34,186 bases of DNA from Acidobacteriota bacterium (GTDB taxonomy: Bacteria > Acidobacteriota > Vicinamibacteria > Vicinamibacterales > SCN-69-37), in the NCBI GenBank assembly GCA_024640135.1, contig JAHEFO010000013.1:1-34186 (forward strand). The letters run 5' to 3'. The translations under genes and the position numbers were made by a program. A model generated the notes under the pieces. That model saw nothing but the letters and a program-made list of their open reading frames with translations. It had not been told where the DNA came from and did no database searches. Shown here in pieces: positions 7,434-22,060 of the stretch. Within the stretch, counting starts at the first letter, position 1. Every line of letters begins with the position of its first letter.

Positions 7434-8096
7434 ATGAGAACCGATCGGGAACTTCAGGAAGATGTGCTCAAAGCACTCGAGTGGGAACCGGGTGTCGACG
7501 CGGCGGAGATCGGTGTGTCGGTCAAGAACGGCGTTGCGACCCTTCAGGGAACCGTTCAATCGTATTTCCAGAAATCGACCGCCGGGCGTGTGGCGCGGCA
7601 CGTCTATGGCATCCGGGCGATTGCCAACGACGTGCAGGTCACCCTTGACGGCCTCGCTCCACGCGGCGACGGCCAGATTGCCGAGGCCGTAGCCAATGCG
7701 ATCCTCTGGGACAGCGTGTTGCCGCTCGATGCCGTCAAGGCGACCGTCGCCGACGGCTGGGTCACGCTGAACGGCATGGTCGATTGGCAGTATCAGAAGT
7801 CCGCCGCGCAGTTCGATATCGAACGCCTGACGGGCGTCAAAGGCGTGACCAACTCGATTGCGCTCAAGAACCGCCCGCGCGTGAACGCGCTCGAGGTGAA
7901 AGCGAAGATCGAGAGCGCCTTCAGGCGCAGCGCCGAGGTCGACTCGGCCAATGTAAGGGTCGAGGCGCACGACGGGGAAGTGATTCTCCACGGCACGGTG
8001 AAGTCGCTGAGCGAACGCCGGGAGGCCGAACGTGCGGCATGGGCGGCGCCTGGGGTGATGAAGGTCGACGATCGGATCGCCGTCTCGCCGTTCTGA
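7434..8096 (+). CDS. Triple BON-domain protein (OsmY-like)
   Basis: About 220 residues. Start ATG 7434 was chosen because GGAGG lies 5 bases upstream and the first BON domain begins at once. Three consecutive BON domains can be read (about 3-72, 79-146 and 152-220). Each has the pattern of a helix, a 'V.V.NGVATLQGTV'-type strand pair, another helix and a closing strand (GVTLDG / GVTNSIAL / VDDRIAV). BON domains are thought to bind phospholipid or act in osmotic and envelope stress, as in OsmY. Unlike OsmY, this protein has no signal peptide from the chosen start, so it would be cytoplasmic unless exported by another route. The gene is monocistronic, with a sigma-54 promoter candidate upstream and a convergent neighbour downstream. 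Confidence 0.9.
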   Translation: MRTDRELQEDVLKALEWEPGVDAAEIGVSVKNGVATLQGTVQSYFQKSTAGRVARHVYGIRAIANDVQVTLDGLAPRGDGQIAEAVANAILWDSVLPLDAVKATVADGWVTLNGMVDWQYQKSAAQFDIERLTGVKGVTNSIALKNRPRVNALEVKAKIESAFRRSAEVDSANVRVEAHDGEVILHGTVKSLSERREAERAAWAAPGVMKVDDRIAVSPF

Positions 8097-8180
8097 CGGG
8101 CGCGAAGGCCATCAACGCCGCCGGCAGAAGACGCCCTCAGGAATCGTGCCGGCCCATTGCCGGGCGCTCCATGTGGAGGG

Positions 8181-12247: not shown

Positions 12248-12276
12248 TTGACCTCCGGCCTGTGCTGGGATATAGG
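12248..12276 (+). promoter_or_regulatory. Sigma-70-like promoter of the benzoyl-CoA operon
   Basis: TTGACC (12248-12253, 5/6 to the -35 consensus), a 17-base spacer, then TATAGG (12271-12276, 4/6 to the -10). Transcription would begin near 12283, about 33 nt before the had start codon. It is the only AT-rich stretch nearby, and it is overlapped by the inverted repeat at 12272-12299. Confidence 0.6.
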
Positions 12277-12299
12277 TAAATAGGAATTTGTTTACCTAT
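12272..12299. promoter_or_regulatory. 28-bp inverted repeat operator over -10 and start site
   Basis: ATAGGTAAA and TTTACCTAT are perfect 9-bp arms with a 10-bp AT-rich centre. The repeat covers nearly all of the -10 element and the predicted transcription start, so a bound protein would block RNA polymerase. Its length and dyad form suit a dimeric winged-helix repressor. The Rrf2 protein encoded at the end of the operon is the obvious candidate, but that pairing is inferred. Confidence 0.55.
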
Positions 12300-12315
12300 T
12301 TAGCCAGGAGGGCAT

Positions 12316-13395
12316 GTGAAGGTCACCTCGTGGGTCGTCGAACAACCCGGCAGTCCAATGGTCTGGCAGCAGCGTGAGGAGACGGTGGCTCCAGGCGAGG
12401 TGCTGATTGAAACTGCCGCCTGCGGCGTTTGCCACACCGATCTCGGCTTCTATTACGACGGTGTTCCCACCAAACATCCGTTTCCCCTGACGCTCGGGCA
12501 CGAAATCAGCGGGCGAGTGGTTGAAACCGGCGAAGGGGCCGAGAGTTGGATGGGGGCGGCGGTGGTAGTGCCCGCCGTCTTGCCCTGTGGCGAGTGTGCG
12601 GCGTGCCGCGCGGGCCGAGGTCAGATCTGTCCGAAGCAGATCTTTCCCGGCAACGACGTGCATGGGGGATTCGGGACCCACGTGCGGGTACCCGCGCGCG
12701 GTTTGTGCCGGGTGCCAGACCTCTCGAATCACGAACTCAATCCGTCTGGACTCGACCTGACGGCCTTGTCGGTGATCGCCGATGCGGTGTCGACGCCGTA
12801 TCAGGCCACGTTGCGCGCCGATGTCCAGTCCGGTGACGTGGCGGTGTGGGTCGGGGTCGGTGGCGTGGGCGGGTTTGGCGTCCAGATCTGTGCGGCGCTC
12901 GGCGCCAGCGTTATCGCCATCGATGTCAACGACGCGCGACTCACCGAGATGTCAAGTCACGGCGCTGCGCTCACCGTGAATTCGTCGGAGACTGAGCCCC
13001 GGGCGATTCGCAAGGCCGTCCGTGCATTCTGTGAGGCGCGCGGCGTTCCATCCTGGCGCCTCCGTATCTTCGAGGCGTCAGGCCATCCGGCAGGCCAGGC
13101 ACTGGCGTTCGGCCTGCTCGGCCACGGCGCCATTCTTTCCGTGGTCGGCTACACGGCCAAGCCGGCCGAAATCCGGCTCTCGAATCTGATGGCATTTGAT
13201 GCGGTCGCGATGGGCAACTGGGGCTGCCTCCCTGAACACTACCCGGCGGTCGTGGACCTGGCGCTCAGCGGCCGCATCGCTCTCGAACCCTTCATCAGAC
13301 GCCGCCCGATGTCCGAGATCAACGACGTCTTCGAACAGTTGCATCACGGCCAGGCGCACGGGCGCATCGTTCTCATTCCGGAGGCTCACGCATGA
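12316..13395 (+). CDS. had: 6-hydroxycyclohex-1-ene-1-carbonyl-CoA dehydrogenase
   Basis: 359 residues, a Zn-dependent medium-chain alcohol dehydrogenase. Start GTG 12316 has AGGAGG 4 bases upstream; the overlapping ATG at 12314 runs straight into a stop. Catalytic zinc ligands are C36 and the H62-E63 pair (GHEISG). The structural zinc site is C91/C94/C97/C105 (CGECAAC..GQIC). The Rossmann motif GVGGVG is at about 180-185, with D203 after the second strand favouring NAD+. The family assignment rests on resemblance to Had of Thauera/Azoarcus and on context with oah, dch and bcr genes. It oxidises the hydroxy-dienoyl-derived CoA ester made by Dch to 6-oxocyclohex-1-ene-1-carbonyl-CoA, reducing NAD+. 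It is the first gene of the operon, directly behind promoter and operator, and its TGA overlaps the oah ATG. Confidence 0.9.
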   Translation: MKVTSWVVEQPGSPMVWQQREETVAPGEVLIETAACGVCHTDLGFYYDGVPTKHPFPLTLGHEISGRVVETGEGAESWMGAAVVVPAVLPCGECAACRAGRGQICPKQIFPGNDVHGGFGTHVRVPARGLCRVPDLSNHELNPSGLDLTALSVIADAVSTPYQATLRADVQSGDVAVWVGVGGVGGFGVQICAALGASVIAIDVNDARLTEMSSHGAALTVNSSETEPRAIRKAVRAFCEARGVPSWRLRIFEASGHPAGQALAFGLLGHGAILSVVGYTAKPAEIRLSNLMAFDAVAMGNWGCLPEHYPAVVDLALSGRIALEPFIRRRPMSEINDVFEQLHHGQAHGRIVLIPEAHA

Positions 13396-14483
13396 CGTTC
13401 AAGGACCACAATCTCGTTCCTGCCTCGGAGACACCCGGTCTTCGCTACGAGGAAACCCCGCTGGCGACACCAGCCGGCGATCCCGTTCCCGGTCTCCATG
13501 TCGTCCGCATCACGCTGGACAATCCGTCTCAGCTCAATTCCTACACCACTGAAATGGTGAAGGGCGTGATTGTCGGCATGCGCCGCGCCTCCAATGACCG
13601 CGGCGCGGTCGCGGTGGTCTTCACGGGTGCGGGCACACGCGCGTTCTGCACGGGCGGCAACACGGCCGAGTACGCCGAGTACTACGCGGGTCGCCCCGGG
13701 GAATACCGCCAGTACATGCGGCTCTTCAACGACATGGTCAGCGCCATTCTCGCATGCGACAAACCGGTCATCTGCCGGGTCAACGGCATGCGGATCGCCG
13801 GGGGCCAGGAGATTGGCATGGCCTGCGACTTCACCGTGGCACAGGACCTTGCGGTCTTCGGTCAGGCGGGACCCCGTCATGGCTCCGCGCCTGACGGAGG
13901 GAGCACGGACTTCCTGCCGTTGTTTGTCGGCGCCGAGGCCGCCATGGAAAGCTGCACCCTCTGCGAGCACTGGAGCGCCTACAAAGCCATGCGCCTGGGC
14001 CTCGTCACCAAAGTGGTGCCCGCGCTGGTCGTCAATGGTGAGTTCGTCCTCAACCCGCTCGTGACGACCGACCGATGGATTGACGACGGGCAGATTGTGT
14101 ACGGCGACATGAAGACCGGAGCGGATCGCGAAGCCGGCAAGCAGGTACTGGCCAGCGGCACCGTCGATCTCTCACGCCTCGACCGCGAGGTCGATCACCT
14201 GATCTTCAAGCTGGCGAACACGATGCCCGGATGCCTCTCGAAGACGGTCGAGAGTGTCAGGAAACACAAGCTCGAACACTGGGATCGCAATCGCGAAAGC
14301 AATCGCGCGTGGCTGGCGCTGAACATGATGACGGAAGGGCGCGCCGGATTCCGCGCCTTCCATGAGGGCAGCAAGCAGTGCCGTGAGGCGGACTTCCTGC
14401 TGCTTCGCCGCAGGCTGGCAGAAGGCGAAACCTGGGGTGACGCGCTGACCGAGGAGATCCTGGCTCAGGCGCATGCCCGATGA
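13392..14483 (+). CDS. oah: 6-oxocyclohex-1-ene-1-carbonyl-CoA hydrolase
   Basis: 363 residues, crotonase superfamily, also called BamA. It adds water to 6-oxocyclohex-1-ene-1-carbonyl-CoA and hydrolytically opens the ring, giving 3-hydroxypimeloyl-CoA. Visible features are the CoA-pocket/oxyanion segment FCTGGN (85-90), IAGGQEIGMACD (135-146), and the GPRHGSAPDGGSTDFLP block (160-176) followed by the SCTLCEHWSAY segment, which together are characteristic of ring-cleaving hydrolases. The length is close to the usual 375 or so. The gene serves as the standard marker for anaerobic aromatic degradation. It overlaps had by 4 bp upstream and the GNAT gene by 4 bp downstream, so translation is probably coupled on both sides. 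Confidence 0.93.
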   Translation: MTFKDHNLVPASETPGLRYEETPLATPAGDPVPGLHVVRITLDNPSQLNSYTTEMVKGVIVGMRRASNDRGAVAVVFTGAGTRAFCTGGNTAEYAEYYAGRPGEYRQYMRLFNDMVSAILACDKPVICRVNGMRIAGGQEIGMACDFTVAQDLAVFGQAGPRHGSAPDGGSTDFLPLFVGAEAAMESCTLCEHWSAYKAMRLGLVTKVVPALVVNGEFVLNPLVTTDRWIDDGQIVYGDMKTGADREAGKQVLASGTVDLSRLDREVDHLIFKLANTMPGCLSKTVESVRKHKLEHWDRNRESNRAWLALNMMTEGRAGFRAFHEGSKQCREADFLLLRRRLAEGETWGDALTEEILAQAHAR

Positions 14484-14941
14484 AAGGCACCCACATCCGG
14501 CCCCTGAGACACCGCGATCTGGCCCAGGTCGTCCGCATCGACGCCATCCACACCGGCGAAGCGCAGCGATCGTACTGGATGCGGCTGTTCAGGGAATTCC
14601 TCGGTGCGTCACCGGAGCGAACGCGGGTGGCCCTGGCCGCCGAGGTCGACGGAACGCTGGCGGGGTTCGTGTTTGCCGACGAGCGGGCGTTCGAGTTCGG
14701 CTCCGAGCCGTGCGGCTGGATCCTCGAGATCGGGATCGAGCCCGCGCACACACGCGTCGGCCTGGCGTCTGCCCTGCTCGGAGAGGCGGTCCGCCGGCTG
14801 CGCGCGGACGGCGTGACGACGGTACGCACGATGGTCCGAAGAAACAATGTGCCGGTCCTGACCTTCTTCCGGACCAATGGGTTTGCCGGAGGGCCGTACG
14901 TGCAACTTGAACTCGTGGACGAGGAATACGCTGATGTCTGA
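14480..14941 (+). CDS. GNAT-family N-acetyltransferase, first copy
   Basis: 153 residues. GNAT fold: an N-terminal 'IRPLRHRDLAQVVRID' strand-helix, the central strand 'ILEIGIEP', the acetyl-CoA-binding motif A 'RVGLASALL' (R92-x-G94-x-A96), and the closing 'FFRTNGF'. It resembles the RimI-like class but is not confidently RimI. Its start overlaps oah by 4 bp and dch starts inside its last codons (8-bp overlap), so it is embedded in the catabolic operon. It is a divergent relative of the second GNAT at 21081-21557, with the same 'EFG...L....V' core and 'FF...GF' end. The substrate is unknown. Plausible targets are enzyme lysines in the pathway or an aromatic amine; both are inference. Confidence 0.85.
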   Translation: MKGTHIRPLRHRDLAQVVRIDAIHTGEAQRSYWMRLFREFLGASPERTRVALAAEVDGTLAGFVFADERAFEFGSEPCGWILEIGIEPAHTRVGLASALLGEAVRRLRADGVTTVRTMVRRNNVPVLTFFRTNGFAGGPYVQLELVDEEYADV

Positions 14942-15704
14942 ATTGGTCAAGGTTGTGCCGCTCGATGACGGCGCCTTCTGGCGCGTGACCTTTGGCGGTA
15001 CCAAGGGCAACATTCTCGACCGGGCCATGATGGCCGCTCTCGGCGGCGTGTTCCGTGACGCCGGGCGCGCCGCCCCTCTGAAGGCCATCTGCCTGGAAGG
15101 CGCAGGCCGCCACTTTTCGTTCGGCGCATCGGTGCAGGAGCATCTTCCGGGGCAGGTGGCCGTGATGCTGGCGGAGATTCGCCAGGTGGTGACGGACCTG
15201 CTCGACAGCGACGTGATCGTGCTGGCGGCCGTCCGCGGTCAGTGTCTGGGGGGCGGACTCGAACTGGCCAGTGTCTGCCATCGCATCTTCGCCAGCCCAG
15301 ACGCGGCGCTGGGCCAGCCCGAAATTGCTCTCGGTGTCTTCGCGCCCATTGCCTCTGTGGTGCTGCCCGCGCGCGTCGGGCGCGCTCACGCCGAAGATCT
15401 CTGCCTCACCGGCCGCACGGTGACGGCAACCGAGGCCCACGAGATGGGTCTGGTGGACGATCTGACGCCCGGCGATCCGGCTGATGCCGCCCTGGCCTGG
15501 GCCCGGACACACCTCTCCGCGCGTTCGGCCAGGAGCCTGCGCCTGGCGGTCAGAGCCGTGCGCACCAATCTGTCCACCCGCATCCGCACGGATCTCCCCG
15601 TGCTCGAAGATCTCTATCTCAACGACTTGATGACGACGAAGGATGCCGTGGAAGGGCTGCAGGCCTTTCTGGACAAGCGGCCGCCGGTCTGGAGAAACTC
15701 ATGA
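14934..15704 (+). CDS. dch: Cyclohexa-1,5-diene-1-carbonyl-CoA hydratase
   Basis: 256 residues, crotonase superfamily. Start ATG 14934 was chosen because it gives the expected N-terminus (MSELVKVVPLDDG) and family length; the frame is open upstream inside the GNAT gene. The oxyanion/CoA segments are FSFGASVQEH (61-70) and RGQCLGGGLELA (101-112), followed by 'ALGQPEIALGVFAP'. Dch hydrates the dienoyl-CoA product of benzoyl-CoA reductase to 6-hydroxycyclohex-1-ene-1-carbonyl-CoA, the substrate of Had. The C-terminal helix carries 'LPVLEDLYLNDLMTTKDAVEGLQAFLDKRPPVW', as in this branch of hydratases. The stop overlaps the bcrC start by 4 bp (ATGA). Assignment rests on family features plus a diagnostic operon context. 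Confidence 0.9.
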   Translation: MSELVKVVPLDDGAFWRVTFGGTKGNILDRAMMAALGGVFRDAGRAAPLKAICLEGAGRHFSFGASVQEHLPGQVAVMLAEIRQVVTDLLDSDVIVLAAVRGQCLGGGLELASVCHRIFASPDAALGQPEIALGVFAPIASVVLPARVGRAHAEDLCLTGRTVTATEAHEMGLVDDLTPGDPADAALAWARTHLSARSARSLRLAVRAVRTNLSTRIRTDLPVLEDLYLNDLMTTKDAVEGLQAFLDKRPPVWRNS

Positions 15705-16876
15705 CCCGTGCGCCTGACCTTCCGGCGCTGTTCGACCGGGCCGACGGACTGTACCGCGACTACAAACTCGGTGCGGTCCGTGCCTGGAAGGCGCGGACAG
15801 GCGGCCTGGCCATCGGCTACATGCCAATCTACATTCCGTGCGAGCTGCTGCATGCGCAGGGCGTCCTCCCCGTCGGCCTGATGGGCGCGCGCGACGACCT
15901 CGAGATCATCAAGGGGGACGCGTACTACCAGTCGTACATCTGCCACATTCCCCGCAGCACGATTGAGCTGGGGCTCAACGGCAACATCGATTGCCTGGAC
16001 GGCCTGATCTTCCCGGCCATTTGCGACGTCATCCGGAATCTCTCGGGGATCTGGCAGACGCTGTTTCCCGACAAGCTCGTGCGGTATCTGGACGTGCCGC
16101 AGAACTTCTCGCCGGACATCGGCGGCCGTTTCTATCGCCACGAACTCGAGACCCTCTGTGCCGAAATGGCCGGGCGTGGGGCACGCCCGTACGACCCCGA
16201 AGCATTGTCCGCGTCGATTGCCCTCTACAACCGGCTCCGGCGCCTGGTGCGCGACCTCTATGCGCTGCGGCAGGAGGCGCCATGGAAAGTGCCGACTTCC
16301 GAGCTCTACATCATGCTGCGTGCCACCCTCGTGCTGCCGGTGGAGGAAGCCATCGACCTGCTCGAGGAGTACCACGCCTGCGTCGAGGCCGCCGACGACC
16401 GTCAGCCGCTGGACCAGGCCCGGGTGCTGCTGACGGGGTCCTTCTGCGAACAGCCGCCGATTGGCCTGATTCGGACCCTCGAGCGTTCCGGGTGTTACAT
16501 CGTCGACGACGACTTCGTGCAGGTGCACCGATGGATCAAGTCCGATATTCCCGTTGAGGGTGATCCGCTGAACAACCTGGTCCAGGCCTTCCTGTCCGAC
16601 GCGATTGCCAGTTCGACCCGGTACATCGACCAGGGGGTCAAGGGCGCGGAGTTGCTCGACCGCGTGCGCATCAGCGGCGCCGAGGGCGTCTTGTTCTGCG
16701 CGCCCAGCTTCTGCGATCCGGCGCTGCTGGACCAACCCATGATGGTGCGGGCTGTCGAGACGACGAAGACGCCGTGGACGGCATTCAAGTACTCCGAGAA
16801 CACCGGCCAGTTCCAGGTCATTCGCGAGCAGGCAGGCACGTTCGCCGACTCAATCAAGCTGTGGAGCGAAGCATGA
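15701..16876 (+). CDS. bcrC: Benzoyl-CoA reductase subunit C (class I, ATP-dependent)
   Basis: 391 residues, of the 2-hydroxyacyl-CoA dehydratase D-component family (HgdA/B-like). With BcrB it forms the catalytic module that binds benzoyl-CoA and a low-potential [4Fe-4S] cluster and carries out the two-electron, Birch-like ring reduction. Candidate cluster cysteines are C47 (YIPCELLHAQG), C81 (QSYICHIPRS) and the later FCEQPP and CAPSFCDP cysteines. 'MPIYIPCELLHA.GVLPVGL' and 'NIDCLDGLIFPAICDVIRNLSG' are strong family blocks. The gene order C-B-A-D matches the Thauera-type bcrCBAD operon, and the size is close to Thauera BcrC. It overlaps dch and bcrB by 4 bp each. The enzyme should be oxygen-sensitive. 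Confidence 0.92.
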   Translation: MTRAPDLPALFDRADGLYRDYKLGAVRAWKARTGGLAIGYMPIYIPCELLHAQGVLPVGLMGARDDLEIIKGDAYYQSYICHIPRSTIELGLNGNIDCLDGLIFPAICDVIRNLSGIWQTLFPDKLVRYLDVPQNFSPDIGGRFYRHELETLCAEMAGRGARPYDPEALSASIALYNRLRRLVRDLYALRQEAPWKVPTSELYIMLRATLVLPVEEAIDLLEEYHACVEAADDRQPLDQARVLLTGSFCEQPPIGLIRTLERSGCYIVDDDFVQVHRWIKSDIPVEGDPLNNLVQAFLSDAIASSTRYIDQGVKGAELLDRVRISGAEGVLFCAPSFCDPALLDQPMMVRAVETTKTPWTAFKYSENTGQFQVIREQAGTFADSIKLWSEA

Positions 16877-18138
16877 GCAAGGACCAGAGCCAAGTCCGCC
16901 AGAAGGACATGATCGCGAGACATTTTGATCGTCTGGCGGCCGCGCCGGACACCGGGGACAAGACGGCCTACACGTTCGTGCCGGGCAACCTGACGGAACT
17001 GCTCTTGAGTTTCGATCTGCTCCCGGTGCTGCCCGAGATCAACTCTCTCCAGTCGGCCATGAGAGGGAAGACGGCCGAGTACATCGCGCTGGCCGAGAAG
17101 TTCGGTCACTCGGAGGATGTCTGCACCTACGTCAAGAGCGACATCGGCATGATGAAGTCCGGCAACATCGGGCCGACCGGCCAGCGGCTGCCCGATCCGG
17201 ACGTGCTGCTGTTGTCCTACACCGGCTGTTTTACCTTCCTCAAGTGGTTCGAGTTGCTCCGCGAGGAATACCACTGTCCCGTCGCGATGCTGCACGTGCC
17301 TTACCAACCGGATGGCCGGGTCACCCCGTCGATGCGCGACTACGTGGTCAAGCAGCTTCGGGATGAGGTGATTCCCACGCTGGAGCGTGTGTCCGGCCGT
17401 GCCTACGATGAGGATCGCCTGAAGGCGCATCTGGCGCTGGCCGCTCAGGCGGAAGATGACCTGGTGTGGGTCCTGCAGTCCGCGAAGCACCGGCCGTCGC
17501 CGATCGATGCGTACTTCGGCGCTGTGTACTACGTCGGCCCGATCTTCAGCGCCTTCCGAGGCACCCAGGCCGCGGTGGAGTACTACCGTGCGTTGCGGTC
17601 GGAAATCGACGAACGCATTCGGGAGGGCAAGGGGCCCGTGACCCCGGACGGGGAGATGGGGCAGGAGCGGTTCCGCGTGGTGGTCGAGGGCCCCCCGAAC
17701 TGGACCAGTTTCCGCCAATTCTGGAAGATGTTCTCCGACGAGGGTGCCGTCGCCGTCGCCTCCACGTACACCAAAGTCGGAGGCATGTACGACCTGGGTT
17801 TCCGTCACGATCCGTCGCGCCCCCTCGAGACCCTTGCGGAGTACTGTCTGGGTTGTTACACCAACCTCGGCCTGCCCACCCGCATCAATCTGCTGGCGCA
17901 GTACATCAAGGAGTACGAAGCGGACGGGTTCCTCATCAACTCGGTCAAGAGCTGCAATTCCTTCAGCGCCGGCCAGTTGCACATCATGCGCGAGGTCGAA
18001 CGAATCTCCGGACGGCCGGGCGGCTTCATCGAGAGTGATCTGGTCGATCCCCGCTATTTCTCGGCAGCCAATATCAAGAACCGGCTCGAATCGTACTTCC
18101 AGATGCTTGAGCAGAAGCGAATGGGAGGGGCGGCATGA
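16873..18138 (+). CDS. bcrB: Benzoyl-CoA reductase subunit B (class I, ATP-dependent)
   Basis: 421 residues from ATG 16873, which overlaps the bcrC stop by 4 bp. It belongs to the same dehydratase/reductase family as BcrC and is its partner in the catalytic heterodimer. Cysteines suited to the cluster are C84 (EDVCTYVKSDIG), C119 (YTGCFTF) and the later EYCLGC and KSCNSF cysteines. Other family blocks are 'VLPEINSLQSAMRGK' and 'CPVAMLHVPYQP'. An N-terminal helix (QVRQKDMIARHFDRL) precedes the core, as usual for BcrB. Its stop overlaps bcrA by 4 bp. Together with the two ATPase subunits downstream it makes a complete four-subunit class I reductase, so ring reduction here would cost ATP rather than use the Bam class II tungsten enzyme. 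Confidence 0.92.
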   Translation: MSKDQSQVRQKDMIARHFDRLAAAPDTGDKTAYTFVPGNLTELLLSFDLLPVLPEINSLQSAMRGKTAEYIALAEKFGHSEDVCTYVKSDIGMMKSGNIGPTGQRLPDPDVLLLSYTGCFTFLKWFELLREEYHCPVAMLHVPYQPDGRVTPSMRDYVVKQLRDEVIPTLERVSGRAYDEDRLKAHLALAAQAEDDLVWVLQSAKHRPSPIDAYFGAVYYVGPIFSAFRGTQAAVEYYRALRSEIDERIREGKGPVTPDGEMGQERFRVVVEGPPNWTSFRQFWKMFSDEGAVAVASTYTKVGGMYDLGFRHDPSRPLETLAEYCLGCYTNLGLPTRINLLAQYIKEYEADGFLINSVKSCNSFSAGQLHIMREVERISGRPGGFIESDLVDPRYFSAANIKNRLESYFQMLEQKRMGGAA

Positions 18139-19448
18139 AGTACACCATCGGAATCGATCTCGGCTCGACGACCACCAAGGCCGTGGTGCTCAACGAGGAC
18201 AGCGTCGTGATGGGGCGCGGGATTACGAACAGCCGCAGCAACTACGAAGTGGCCTGCCAGGTGGCGATGAGCGAGGCGCTCATCAACACCCGCTTTTCGC
18301 TGCTCCGGAACGAGCTCAAGTCTGAGGGGCTGTCGGAAGTCGAGCTGGACCGCTGGGTCAGCGAACTCGAGCGGCGGTTTCGCGCCGAACAGTACCGTTC
18401 GCAGTTGACCGTGCTGACGCGCGAACTCAATCGATTTGCGGGGCGCATGCTGATTGGCGGCGCGGCGCTGCGGGCGGCAGTCGGCCGCATCACGGGACTG
18501 ATGGCGGCCGAGGTCGAGGACCTGTACGCGGAAGGGACCCGGCGCAAGAGCGACTTCTTCCGGGACCTGGCCGGCGGCCGCTACATGAAACTGGCTGAAA
18601 CGGAAAGTCGCGGCCATGGCGTGGGGTACGACCAGGTGGTGGGACTGTTCGACAAGTCGATTCTCGATGTCGAGAACTCGGCCGAGGCTGCCGGAAGATT
18701 CAAAGATCATATGGCGGCTGCGGTGTGCGCCGCCGGGGCGGCCGACGGCGTGCTGGGCCAGGCCGTCTCGCGCGTCGCGTCACGGGAACTCGAGCAAATC
18801 GGCTCGGTCGGCACAGGTTACGGGCGACAGCGGCTGCCGTTTCCGGAGGGGCAAATCAAGTCCGAGATCCTCTGCCATGGTCTTGGCGCTCACGCCATGT
18901 TTCCGCTGACACGCACGGTGCTCGACATCGGAGGGCAGGACACCAAGGCCATTCAGGTCGACGACCAGGGCATCGTCACGTCCTTTCAGATGAACGACCG
19001 GTGTGCCGCCGGCTGCGGGCGTTATCTGGGATACATCGCGGACGAAATGAACCTGGGTCTGCATGAACTCGGCCCCGTGGCGTGCCAGTCGGATTCTCCC
19101 GTGCGGATCAACTCGACGTGCACCGTGTTTGCCGGTGCCGAACTCCGCGAACGACTGTCGCTGGGCGAGAAACAGGAGGACATTCTCGCCGGCCTCCATC
19201 GGGCAATTATTCTGCGCGCGATGTCGTTGATCGCCCGGTCGGGCGGCATCAGCAACCAGTTCACGTTCACGGGCGGCGTGGCGAAGAATCCGGCGGCCGT
19301 GCGGGCACTCCGGGATTTGTTGACGGAACACTACGGCGATCTGGATATCAATATTTCCGACGATTCGATCTACACGGGCGCCCTCGGCGCCGCGTTGTTC
19401 GCGCTCCGGGACCGACGCCGTTCTGCCGGCGCCCCGGCCATTCACTGA
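18135..19448 (+). CDS. bcrA: Benzoyl-CoA reductase ATPase/activator subunit A
   Basis: 437 residues, ASKHA-fold ATPase of the BcrA/BadF family. Phosphate-1 motif IGIDLGSTTTKAV (5-17); phosphate-2 motif D264-IGGQDTK. The cysteines that hold the [4Fe-4S] cluster shared between A and D are C290 (NDRCAAGC) and C329 (NSTCTVFAGAE). It has the long insertion (about 35-190, NSRSNYEVACQVAMSE... RKSDFFRDLAGG) that separates BcrA from the shorter BcrD and from HgdC activators. With BcrD it accepts electrons from ferredoxin and couples ATP hydrolysis to their transfer to BcrBC. It overlaps bcrB by 4 bp. No ferredoxin gene is in the operon. Confidence 0.93.
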   Translation: MKYTIGIDLGSTTTKAVVLNEDSVVMGRGITNSRSNYEVACQVAMSEALINTRFSLLRNELKSEGLSEVELDRWVSELERRFRAEQYRSQLTVLTRELNRFAGRMLIGGAALRAAVGRITGLMAAEVEDLYAEGTRRKSDFFRDLAGGRYMKLAETESRGHGVGYDQVVGLFDKSILDVENSAEAAGRFKDHMAAAVCAAGAADGVLGQAVSRVASRELEQIGSVGTGYGRQRLPFPEGQIKSEILCHGLGAHAMFPLTRTVLDIGGQDTKAIQVDDQGIVTSFQMNDRCAAGCGRYLGYIADEMNLGLHELGPVACQSDSPVRINSTCTVFAGAELRERLSLGEKQEDILAGLHRAIILRAMSLIARSGGISNQFTFTGGVAKNPAAVRALRDLLTEHYGDLDINISDDSIYTGALGAALFALRDRRRSAGAPAIH

Positions 19449-19456
19449 GGTCTCCC

Positions 19457-20320
19457 ATGCCCGATACACCTTCAGATTCGACGATGCTCACTGCCGGCGT
19501 GGATGTGGGATCGGCGGTCATCAAGATGGCCATCGTGGAAACAGACGAAGCCGGCGGCGAGCGTTTGGTCATCTGCCGCGGCGAGCGCATTCGACGCCGT
19601 GACACTCATGCCGTCGCGGAGAGCCTGTTTGCCGATCTCCTGAAGGAGAGTGGTGTCAGTCGCGACGCGCTCGGCTACGTGGCGACCACCGGCGAGGGCG
19701 AGACCATCCCGTTTCGCACCGGGCACTTCTACGGGATGACGACTCATGCGCGCGGCGGCCTGTTCCTGGAGCCGGAGGCCAGGGCCATCATCGACATGGG
19801 GGCGCTGCACACTCGTGCTGTCTCCATGGACGAACGCAGCAAGGTGATGGGATACCGGATGACCAGTCAGTGCGCGTCGGGTTCGGGTCAGTTCCTCGAG
19901 AACATCGCCCGATACCTTGGGGTCTCGCTCGAGGAGGTGGGCACCCTGTCCCTGCAAGCCGACAATCCCGAGGCCTGTTCGTCCATTTGCGCCGTCTTGG
20001 CCGAAACAGACGTGATCAACATGGTGTCTCGAGGCATCACCCTGCCGAATATCCTCAAAGGCATTCACACCTCCATGGCCGGCCGGGCGGTGCGTCTGCT
20101 AGTGTCGCTTGGCAAACCACCAGTGGTGATCGTGACCGGCGGACTGGCGAATGATGCCGGGCTGGTGGCGGCCCTTCGCGAGGCCGCCGCAGGGCAGAAG
20201 CTGGAGATCGATATCAGGCGGCATGAGCACTCCATGATTGCCGGTGCGATCGGTGCCGCGCTGTGGGGGGCATTCCGCGCGCGGAAGCTGCAGCGGCTGA
20301 AGGAGCGGGTGGCGTCGTGA
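19457..20320 (+). CDS. bcrD: Benzoyl-CoA reductase ATPase/activator subunit D
   Basis: About 287 residues from ATG 19457 (GAGG 6 bases upstream; 8 bp after the bcrA stop). It is a short ASKHA ATPase and pairs with BcrA. N-terminal 'TAGVDVGSAVIKMAI' is the phosphate-1 loop; 'AIIDMGALHTRAV' is the phosphate-2 region, with a substituted GG. Cluster cysteines lie in SQCASGSGQFLE and in EACSSICAVLAETD, matching the two-cysteine arrangement of activator proteins. 'FTGGLANDAG'-type adenosine-loop sequence appears as VIVTGGLANDAG near residue 230. The frame is open well upstream, but that part overlaps bcrA and has no family resemblance. The TGA overlaps the GTG of the next gene by 4 bp. Confidence 0.92.
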   Translation: MPDTPSDSTMLTAGVDVGSAVIKMAIVETDEAGGERLVICRGERIRRRDTHAVAESLFADLLKESGVSRDALGYVATTGEGETIPFRTGHFYGMTTHARGGLFLEPEARAIIDMGALHTRAVSMDERSKVMGYRMTSQCASGSGQFLENIARYLGVSLEEVGTLSLQADNPEACSSICAVLAETDVINMVSRGITLPNILKGIHTSMAGRAVRLLVSLGKPPVVIVTGGLANDAGLVAALREAAAGQKLEIDIRRHEHSMIAGAIGAALWGAFRARKLQRLKERVAS

Positions 20321-21048
20321 GCCTGCTGTCGCTGTTGGAGATGCAGGGGCGCGTGGCGGTGGTCGCCGGCGGCGCCGGGGCGATTGGTGCGGCGGTCTGC
20401 GGGCGACTGAGAGAGTGTGGCGCGACCGTCTTCTGCCTGGACCGTCCCGGGCGAATGGCACCAGAAGGCACGACATTTCTGGCGTGTGACGTCGCGGACG
20501 AGGCGGCTGTCGCCGGCGCCGTTGCGGAAGTCGATCGGCTGTCCGGGCGTCTCGACATCGTCGTGCACGCCGCCGGCATCACGCGTGACGCACGACTCTG
20601 GAAGGCCAGTGCCGAGGACTGGAACCAGGTCATGTCCACCAACCTCACGTCGGCGTTCCACCTGCTCCATGCGGCGGTGCCCATCATGCGGCGCACTGGA
20701 GGCGGTGCCGTCGTGCTGATTTCATCCATCAATGGCGAGCGCGGCAAGATCGGTCTGTCGTCGTATTCCGCCAGCAAAGCTGGTCTCAATGCGCTGGCCA
20801 GGACGGCGGCACGGGAGGTCGGTGTGTTCGGGATTCGCGTCAACGCCCTGGCGCCCGGATGGATCACGACGCCCATGACCGCCTCGCTGCCCGACGAGTT
20901 TCACCAGCGGGCGGCCGATGAGTCCGCGCTTGGCCGCGTGGGTGAACCCGATGATGTGGCGCGCGCGGCCGTGTTCCTGGTCTGCGATCTTTCCAGGCAC
21001 GTGACGGGCCAGGTGATCCGCGTCGACGGTGGCCAGCTGATTGGGTAG
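20317..21048 (+). CDS. SDR-family oxidoreductase, possibly acting on a pathway acyl-CoA
   Basis: 243 residues, classical short-chain dehydrogenase. Start GTG 20317 overlaps the bcrD stop (GTGA). Cofactor loop GGAGAIG (18-24), 'HAAGI' in place of NNAG (84-88), catalytic S137 and the Y150-x-x-x-K154 motif (YSASK) are all present. D42 after the second strand suggests NAD(H). It most resembles FabG-like 3-hydroxyacyl dehydrogenases. By position it could oxidise 3-hydroxypimeloyl-CoA, the product of Oah, or another CoA ester of the pathway. R. palustris uses the SDR BadH in its variant pathway, but had and oah here imply the Thauera-type route, so I do not name it BadH. Substrate assignment is inference; SDR family membership is certain. 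Confidence 0.88.
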   Translation: MSLLSLLEMQGRVAVVAGGAGAIGAAVCGRLRECGATVFCLDRPGRMAPEGTTFLACDVADEAAVAGAVAEVDRLSGRLDIVVHAAGITRDARLWKASAEDWNQVMSTNLTSAFHLLHAAVPIMRRTGGGAVVLISSINGERGKIGLSSYSASKAGLNALARTAAREVGVFGIRVNALAPGWITTPMTASLPDEFHQRAADESALGRVGEPDDVARAAVFLVCDLSRHVTGQVIRVDGGQLIG

Positions 21049-21080
21049 TGGCCGTACGGCCGCCTGGAGGAGAAGAAGCG

Positions 21081-21557
21081 ATGGAACTCGACAGTCCCCC
21101 ACGTGATCTGGTGCTTATCAGAAGCCTGCGTTCCGATGACATTGATGCCATTACGGCCATTGATGAGCGCGCGGTCGGACGCCGACGCGACCGGTTTCTG
21201 TCACTCAAGATGAAACAGGCCATGAGCGACACCGGCATTGCCGTGTCGCTGGCCGCGGAACTGGACGGCCATGTCGTGGGTTTCCTGCTGGCCCGGCTCT
21301 ACTACGGCGAGTTTGGCGTGACCGAACCTGCAGCCGTGCTCGACGTCCTCGGTGTGCATGGCGACTATCGCGGCCGGCATGTGGCTGCTGCGCTCCTCGA
21401 TCAACTGCGGACCAATCTGCTGGGTCTCGGCATCGGGACTCTGCAGACGGAGGTCTCGTGGAATCATCCCGACCTGATCACATTCTTCCAGCACGAAGGG
21501 TTCACGATCGCGCCGAGGTTGTGCCTGGATCTTGATCTGGCTCGTACGCGAACCTGA
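21081..21557 (+). CDS. GNAT-family N-acetyltransferase, second copy
   Basis: 158 residues from ATG 21081, chosen over GTG 21048 because of the purine-rich GGAGGAGAAGAAG ribosome binding stretch just before it. Conserved parts: 'LIRSLRSDDIDAITAID' N-terminus, 'VLDVLGVHGDYRGRHVAAALL' with the acetyl-CoA motif RGRHVA (97-102), and 'LITFFQHEGF' near the end. Motif A has V-A where G-x-G/A is usual. It is a divergent paralogue of the first GNAT at 14480-14941, aligning over the whole length ('LAAE.DG...GF', 'EFG', 'FF...GF'). It lies between the SDR and the Rrf2 regulator, 32 bp after the SDR and 5 bp before the regulator. The substrate is unknown. Confidence 0.85.
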   Translation: MELDSPPRDLVLIRSLRSDDIDAITAIDERAVGRRRDRFLSLKMKQAMSDTGIAVSLAAELDGHVVGFLLARLYYGEFGVTEPAAVLDVLGVHGDYRGRHVAAALLDQLRTNLLGLGIGTLQTEVSWNHPDLITFFQHEGFTIAPRLCLDLDLARTRT

Positions 21558-21562
21558 CATCC

Positions 21563-22060
21563 ATGAACCTCACCAAGTCCACACAATACGCGCTGTACGC
21601 GGCTGCTGAGATGGCGATGGCCGGCGAGGCCCCGACGACGGTGTCCGCAGTGGCCGCGCGTTACCGGATTCCAGAAGGGGCGCTGGCGAAGGTCTTCCAG
21701 CAGATGGTGCGGGCGGGCCTGGCGACCGGGACACGCGGGATCGGCGGCGGCTATCGCCTCGCCCGGCCGGCGTCGAAAATCACGGTTCTTGACGTCATGC
21801 ACGTCTTCGAGCGGCGCCGTACGCCTGGCGTGTGCGCCCTGCACCCGCGCCCCGAGGTTCCGTGTCCGACGGCCTCCGCCTGCAGAGTGCAGTGGCTCTT
21901 TCACGAAGTTGACGAACTCGTGCAGGCCACGTACGAGTCGGTGACGCTGCAGACGCTCGTTCGGCGCCGGGCGCCCAGGCGTCAGGCCGATCCGGCGTCC
22001 AACGCCGTCACCGTGCCGGCCTCCATGCTGAAGAAGCGGTCGCCCCAGCGGGTCCGCTGA
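21563..22060 (+). CDS. Rrf2-family transcriptional regulator (BadM/IscR-like)
   Basis: 165 residues. Winged helix-turn-helix at about 1-75: 'STQYALYAAAEMAM', the recognition region 'PEGALAKVFQQMVRAGL', and the wing 'GTRGIGGGYRLARPA', which is diagnostic for Rrf2. Three cysteines, C91, C101 and C107, sit in the Fe-S ligand region of this family, with spacing C-x9-C-x5-C; IscR uses C-x5-C-x5-C. A basic tail (RRRAPRR) follows. Members of this family sense Fe-S status, NO or O2, and BadM of R. palustris represses anaerobic benzoate genes. As last gene of the operon it is well placed to control its own promoter at 12248-12276 through the repeat at 12272-12299. Fe-S binding and target are inferred. 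Confidence 0.9.
   Translation: MNLTKSTQYALYAAAEMAMAGEAPTTVSAVAARYRIPEGALAKVFQQMVRAGLATGTRGIGGGYRLARPASKITVLDVMHVFERRRTPGVCALHPRPEVPCPTASACRVQWLFHEVDELVQATYESVTLQTLVRRRAPRRQADPASNAVTVPASMLKKRSPQRVR

Follow-up and report, generated by a model that had tools for sequence, protein, structure and literature searches.

A conserved candidate operator for a BadM-type repressor at the promoter of an acidobacterial benzoyl-CoA operon

Introduction

The Rrf2-type regulator BadM of Rhodopseudomonas palustris is described as repressing badDEFGAB, and acetamidobenzoates, the products of the acetyltransferase BadL, as weakening its binding to the badC-badD region (PMC6191541). The regulator and an acetyltransferase of the locus analysed here fall in the same clades as these two proteins, and each system is directed at a class I benzoyl-CoA reductase operon, with the proposed site of our locus lying in the promoter region. 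The organisms belong to different phyla and the genes are arranged differently: here badL is internal to the operon proposed to be repressed, and badM closes that operon. R. palustris-type loci have both genes on the opposite strand, some 2 kb beyond the reductase genes. The candidate operator sequences also differ (GCATT-N10-ATTAC in the R. palustris-type badC-badD region), a difference that need not be defining.

Other Rrf2 regulators bind wide dyads, as would the protein studied here. IscR, NsrR, RirA and CymR share its Rrf2 fold, judged by profile and nearest solved structures, but it scores far below the curated cut-offs for the first three (58.9 of 207.55 bits for IscR, 45.4 of 182 for NsrR and 62.6 of 193 for RirA), and proteins of the BadM group appear able to do without the cysteine triad. 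BzdR, BadR and others are likewise described as pathway-specific repressors acting at a promoter (PMC6678401, PMC9795900), but they belong to other protein families and have other operators, such as CAATnnATTG for BadR (PMC9795900). In the open-licence literature, we found no title or abstract on a BadM operator or on BadL/BadM in Acidobacteria.

Results

The window, a 34,186-nucleotide stretch of an acidobacterial contig, contains the benzoyl-CoA operon, a run of 11 genes (Table 1). Gaps between successive genes range from −65 to 38 bp, the −65 probably reflecting a dch start called too early. The product of the last gene matches PF02082 with 98.2 bits (cut-off 30) and TIGR00738 with 94.4 bits (cut-off 73.3), and it groups with R. 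palustris BadM in a clade of 45 rows, with 17 other Rrf2 proteins outside and the protein of locus L075 inside though that locus lacks badL. This bears out an earlier note on this DNA, which had called the last gene Rrf2-type and pointed to BadM as a member of this family. The gene is also supported as the best candidate for the regulator, as the note implied; the note overlooked the BadL-type acetyltransferase encoded by the third gene, which groups with R. palustris BadL in a clade of 44 rows, apart from the other operon GNATs. In the window, badM is thus linked to both badL and the benzoyl-CoA reductase genes, and the third gene probably encodes, judging from its clade, the enzyme making the BadM inducer.

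The second GNAT gene (gnatL), beside the Rrf2 gene, was considered as badL and rejected: its product lies outside the BadL clade, and gnatL follows bcrD in class I bcr operons of many loci in the range L048–L127, whether or not they have badL/badM, including 23 of the 39 badL-negative loci with enough sequence. Several Rhizobiales loci carry two gnatL copies.

Table 1 Features of the promoter region and operon in the window, and candidate BadM sites in R. palustris-type loci
Feature	Position	Strand	Basis
-35-like hexamer TTGACC	12248..12253	+	Direct reading; unmapped; most relatives also have TTGAC ahead of the operator
Extra half-site GATATAGG	12269..12276	+	Repeats TAAATAGG in direct orientation 8 bp further upstream
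Weak -10-like hexamer TATAGG	12271..12276	+	Overlaps extra upstream half-site; strict scan negative
Dyad A, 28-bp dyad, 9-N10-9	12272..12299	strand-neutral	Direct reading and recomputation
Dyad B, TAAATAGG-N10-CCTATTTA, conserved 26-bp operator candidate	12277..12302	strand-neutral	Comparison with relatives
Ribosome binding site of had, AGGAGGG	12306..12312	+	Direct reading
had, 6-hydroxycyclohex-1-ene-1-carbonyl-CoA dehydrogenase	12316..13395	+	TIGR03201 over cut-off
oah, 6-oxocyclohex-1-ene-1-carbonyl-CoA hydratase	13392..14483	+	TIGR03200 over cut-off
badL-type GNAT acetyltransferase, third gene, probable inducer-making enzyme	14480..14941	+	R. palustris BadL clade, support 100/100
dch, cyclohexa-1,5-dienecarbonyl-CoA hydratase	14877..15704	+	TIGR03189, 283 bits, just below cut-off 292.5
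bcrC	15701..16876	+	TIGR02263 over cut-off
bcrB	16873..18138	+	TIGR02260 over cut-off
bcrA	18135..19448	+	TIGR02259, 559.1 bits, just below cut-off 578
bcrD	19487..20320	+	TIGR02261 over cut-off
Short-chain dehydrogenase (SDR)	20317..21048	+	PF13561; start set by 4-bp overlap
Second GNAT (gnatL), other than BadL type	21048..21557	+	PF00583; outside BadL clade
badM-type Rrf2 regulator, proposed repressor, last gene of run	21563..22060	+	PF02082; R. palustris BadM clade, support 100/98
Candidate BadM site GCATT-N10-ATTAC	L192 1382-1401		Pattern match
Candidate BadM site GCATT-N10-ATTAC	L193 2042-2061		Pattern match
Candidate BadM site GCATT-N10-ATTAC	L194 1817-1836		Pattern match

Upstream of had, the earlier note had read a promoter with hexamers TTGACC and TATAGG, 17 bp apart and about 40 bp before the gene. 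Both hexamers are present, with the 17-bp spacer and 39 bp from the end of TATAGG to the GTG start (12316), and by eye they match the sigma-70 consensus at 9 of 12 positions. The promoter assignment itself is weaker: a strict sigma-70 scan returned 0 promoters over threshold, the last T being missing from TATAGG, and the -10 hexamer can be assigned only provisionally, since the distance from TTGAC to the -10-like hexamer varies among relatives (by eye, about 12 bp in genome G011 and 15–18 bp in others). A strict terminator scan was uninformative.

Recomputation confirmed the perfect 9+9-bp inverted repeat described over this promoter (dyad A, ATAGGTAAA-N10-TTTACCTAT) and its AT-rich character, with 22% GC at 12271–12302 against 65% window-wide. 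It is the sole perfect 9-N10-9 dyad of the window and, among 11 perfect dyads with 9-bp arms and spacers of 0–20 bp, the only one under 45% GC. Allowing up to 3 mismatches, its pattern had a single match in the window (0 in 100 shuffles) and a single match in the organism's own 4.32-Mb genome, so that the suggested search for further copies gave none besides the had site. A second perfect dyad, dyad B, overlaps it, with its symmetry centre 4 bp downstream (12289.5, against 12285.5 for dyad A). Dyad A arises because the left half-site of dyad B is repeated 8 bp upstream (GATATAGG TAAATAGG).

We propose, with a probability of about 0.78, that the last gene of the operon encodes a BadM-type repressor that uses this site as its operator and responds to a BadL-made inducer. 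Our observations comprise the site's sequence and conservation, the fact that it occurs together with badM and badL, and how the proteins group; binding, repression, induction and feedback we infer from these. A BadM dimer would bind dyad B, which covers the -10 and start region, and block RNA polymerase at the promoter; the extra half-site 8 bp upstream could accommodate another BadM subunit or dimer. The operon's BadL homologue would acetylate an aminobenzoate-like compound, and the product, probably an acetylated aminobenzoate or related aromatic, would release BadM. Because badL lies inside the repressed operon, the operon would encode both its repressor and the probable inducer-making enzyme; once started, it would reinforce its own expression while also raising the level of repressor.

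To place the site among bcr loci more widely, species genomes were scanned with a BcrB alignment, giving 80 loci, or 82 with the window and G011; 62 of these had enough sequence before had to be scored and 20 were dropped. Dyad B within 4 mismatches preceded had in 11 of 21 badL-positive loci versus 1 of 41 badL-negative loci (Fisher p = 7e-6, treating related genomes as independent), and a reversed-pattern control matched 0 of 21 and 1 of 41, respectively. The association extends to two Planctomycetota loci, L071 and L076. A Had tree held only 5 independent pairs, with 2–3 concordant and 0–1 discordant, too few to reach significance; the association of operator and badL is strong in counts, its independence from ancestry unproven.

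The badM gene was present in all 17 badL-positive loci having at least 3.5 kb after bcrD, and among the 39 badL-negative loci with that much sequence a BadM-type match was found in L068 alone, whose contig begins inside dch. Shortly before bcrC, within the operon, is where badL lies in 21 of the 24 loci that have it, the other three being from Rhizobiales.

Dyad B within 4 mismatches was missing before had in 10 of the 21 badL-positive loci, and in most of these ten no alternative operator could be defined. At L067 a clear and perfect variant dyad, GAAATCGA-N10-TCGATTTC, has the same 8-N10-8 layout (equalled in 0 of 100 shuffles); variants sought at L060/L062, L073, L079 and L080 gave none that could be settled. 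KVFQQ occupies the presumed recognition helix, whose placement we take from IscR, in 9 of 9 BadM proteins with dyad B within 4 mismatches and in 1 of 10 others (Fisher p = 1e-4, or 9e-4 excluding alphaproteobacteria, ancestry not factored in). The one exception is L080, where KVFQQ occurs but no site could be recognised. At L067, RVMQT takes the place of KVFQQ. A further pattern, GYATT-N10-AWTRC, occurred before had or badD in 9 of 211 loci, Rhizobiales and R. palustris-type, and was written from these same nine matches. From these sequences, the variant dyads of L067, Rhizobiales and R. palustris-type loci may be BadM sites.

In the R. palustris-type badC-badD region, GCATT-N10-ATTAC lies beside TTTGAT-N4-ATCAAA, an FNR/AadR-like box.

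If BadM binds the site, control could still come from an Fe-S cluster of the kind found in IscR, RirA or NsrR, sensing oxygen, redox state or iron, with BadL acting on something else. The window protein has the cysteine motif C-X9-C-X5-C, which we take to be of the Rrf2 Fe-S kind, and a three-cysteine motif occurs in 13 of the 46 BadM-clade sequences listed. Benzoyl-CoA reductase is moreover described as oxygen-labile (PMC6191541). Against this, the triad is missing in 5 of the 9 BadM proteins whose loci have the dyad B operator, 4 of them without any cysteine, and from all Rhizobiales and R. palustris-type BadM proteins listed. A cluster would therefore be unneeded for reading dyad B, and the constant company of badM and badL also speaks against Fe-S control. 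We consider such control unlikely and the regulator probably not an obligate Fe-S sensor.

Which of the two dyads would be read was judged from 11 aligned sites. Complementary pairs made up 86% at the centre of dyad B and 58% at that of dyad A, in an alignment whose register was set on the left arm of dyad B and hence favours B over A. Perfect dyads numbered 5 of 11 for B and 2 of 11 for A, the latter being the window and G011 only. In L057, L065, L071 and L076, dyad A keeps 3 of 9 pairs where B keeps 6–8 of 8; L072 and L078, outside the set of 11, match neither dyad well. That dyad A is itself the operator would agree with its perfect 9+9 arms in the window and G011 and with the AGG of its left half, part of the extra half-site GATATAGG, which is retained by most of the sites aligned from the order. 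Relatives keep symmetry at B instead, so we do not take dyad A for the conserved operator and regard it as a rather improbable operator in the window. Of the original proposal of the 28-bp dyad, an operator-like dyad over the promoter is conserved, but its conserved centre lies 4 bp downstream.

Conservation upstream of orthologous operons, the check suggested earlier, was found within the order. Among 198 relatives searched, 24 genomes had a had match over the profile cut-off, and 7 of these 24 had the site before had (G000, G011, G041, G077, G141, G149 and G155). An equivalent of the window's BadL-type GNAT was present in 6 of 16 longer regions, the same six that carry the site; in three of them the contig stops short of the Rrf2 position. 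Across the 162 genomes searched in the order, dyad B occurred without mismatch 4 times, always before had. At up to 2 mismatches there were 9 sites in 9 genomes, the 4 exact and 5 with 2 mismatches; of the latter, 1 lay before had (G155) and 4 elsewhere (G024, G022, G008 and G134). The reversed dyad gave 3 sites in the same genomes, so the four away from had are explicable by chance.

A palindrome does not by itself name its binding protein, and a regulator encoded elsewhere could bind the site. The Rrf2 gene is, however, the only one found by profile searches to encode a DNA-binding protein in the operon, and in 14 whole genomes searched, a badM orthologue was present in 7 of 7 with the site (55–100% identity, at least 141 bits) versus 0 of 7 had-bearing genomes without it (best match 30%, 56 bits). 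Another regulator is thus very unlikely. The Rrf2 orthologue adjoins the second GNAT in G011, G041, G141 and G077.

The dyad acting as an RNA hairpin in the leader is the most remote alternative: as RNA, 12268–12306 has a predicted fold of −13.5 kcal/mol (z = −3.8), equalled by 0 of 200 shuffles, but a start near 12283 would leave the left arm out of the transcript and a remaining leader with no notable fold (z = 0.69), the hairpin is built on dyad A, whose pairing is not conserved among relatives, and in L065 the dyad lies directly behind TTGACC, further upstream in the promoter.

Three genomes of the order showed other arrangements. G077 has a truncated badM copy beside bcrD and an intact one about 11 kb on, beside gnatL (L039 about 8041-8163 and G077:C18:16585-17013), as if the operon end had been rearranged. 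G005, of the window's genus, has a had fragment (L044 6287-6982; 232 aa, 76% identical) without operator or neighbouring operon genes, perhaps the remnant of a lost operon. G029 has a had-oah-dch-SDR cluster (L032 11932-15636) without bcr genes, badL/badM or operator.

Discussion

BadM/BadL is a known regulatory pair; what is new is a variant arrangement and a candidate operator in an acidobacterium far from the known hosts. The proposed reading, a BadM-type repressor at dyad B, supplies a testable operator sequence for a regulator of this type beyond Proteobacteria. It links acetamidobenzoate, a signal that has received little study, to environmental bacteria not yet in culture, and puts the enzyme that probably makes the inducer under control of the very operator which that inducer would relieve. 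A further caution is that cysteines in an Rrf2 protein need not mean Fe-S sensing.

More tentatively, and with the balance somewhat against it, the benzoyl-CoA operon of Acidobacteria and Planctomycetota may be a self-contained switch, in which one operator controls a transcript carrying both the badM repressor and the inducer-making badL. Were this so, hysteresis or all-or-none induction would be expected, operator and recognition helix would co-vary between lineages, and Fe-S input would be gained or lost in some lineages.

Outside these phyla, a homologue of the window's first GNAT directly precedes the Rrf2 homologue in the Rhizobiales loci L114, L119 and L124, and R. palustris-type genomes have the same GNAT-Rrf2 pair. 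In the Myxococcales loci L081, L083, L086 and L088, which have no badM, GAACGAACGTTCGTTC lies directly behind TTGAC, 65–67 bp before had, and to us resembles a TetR-type operator.
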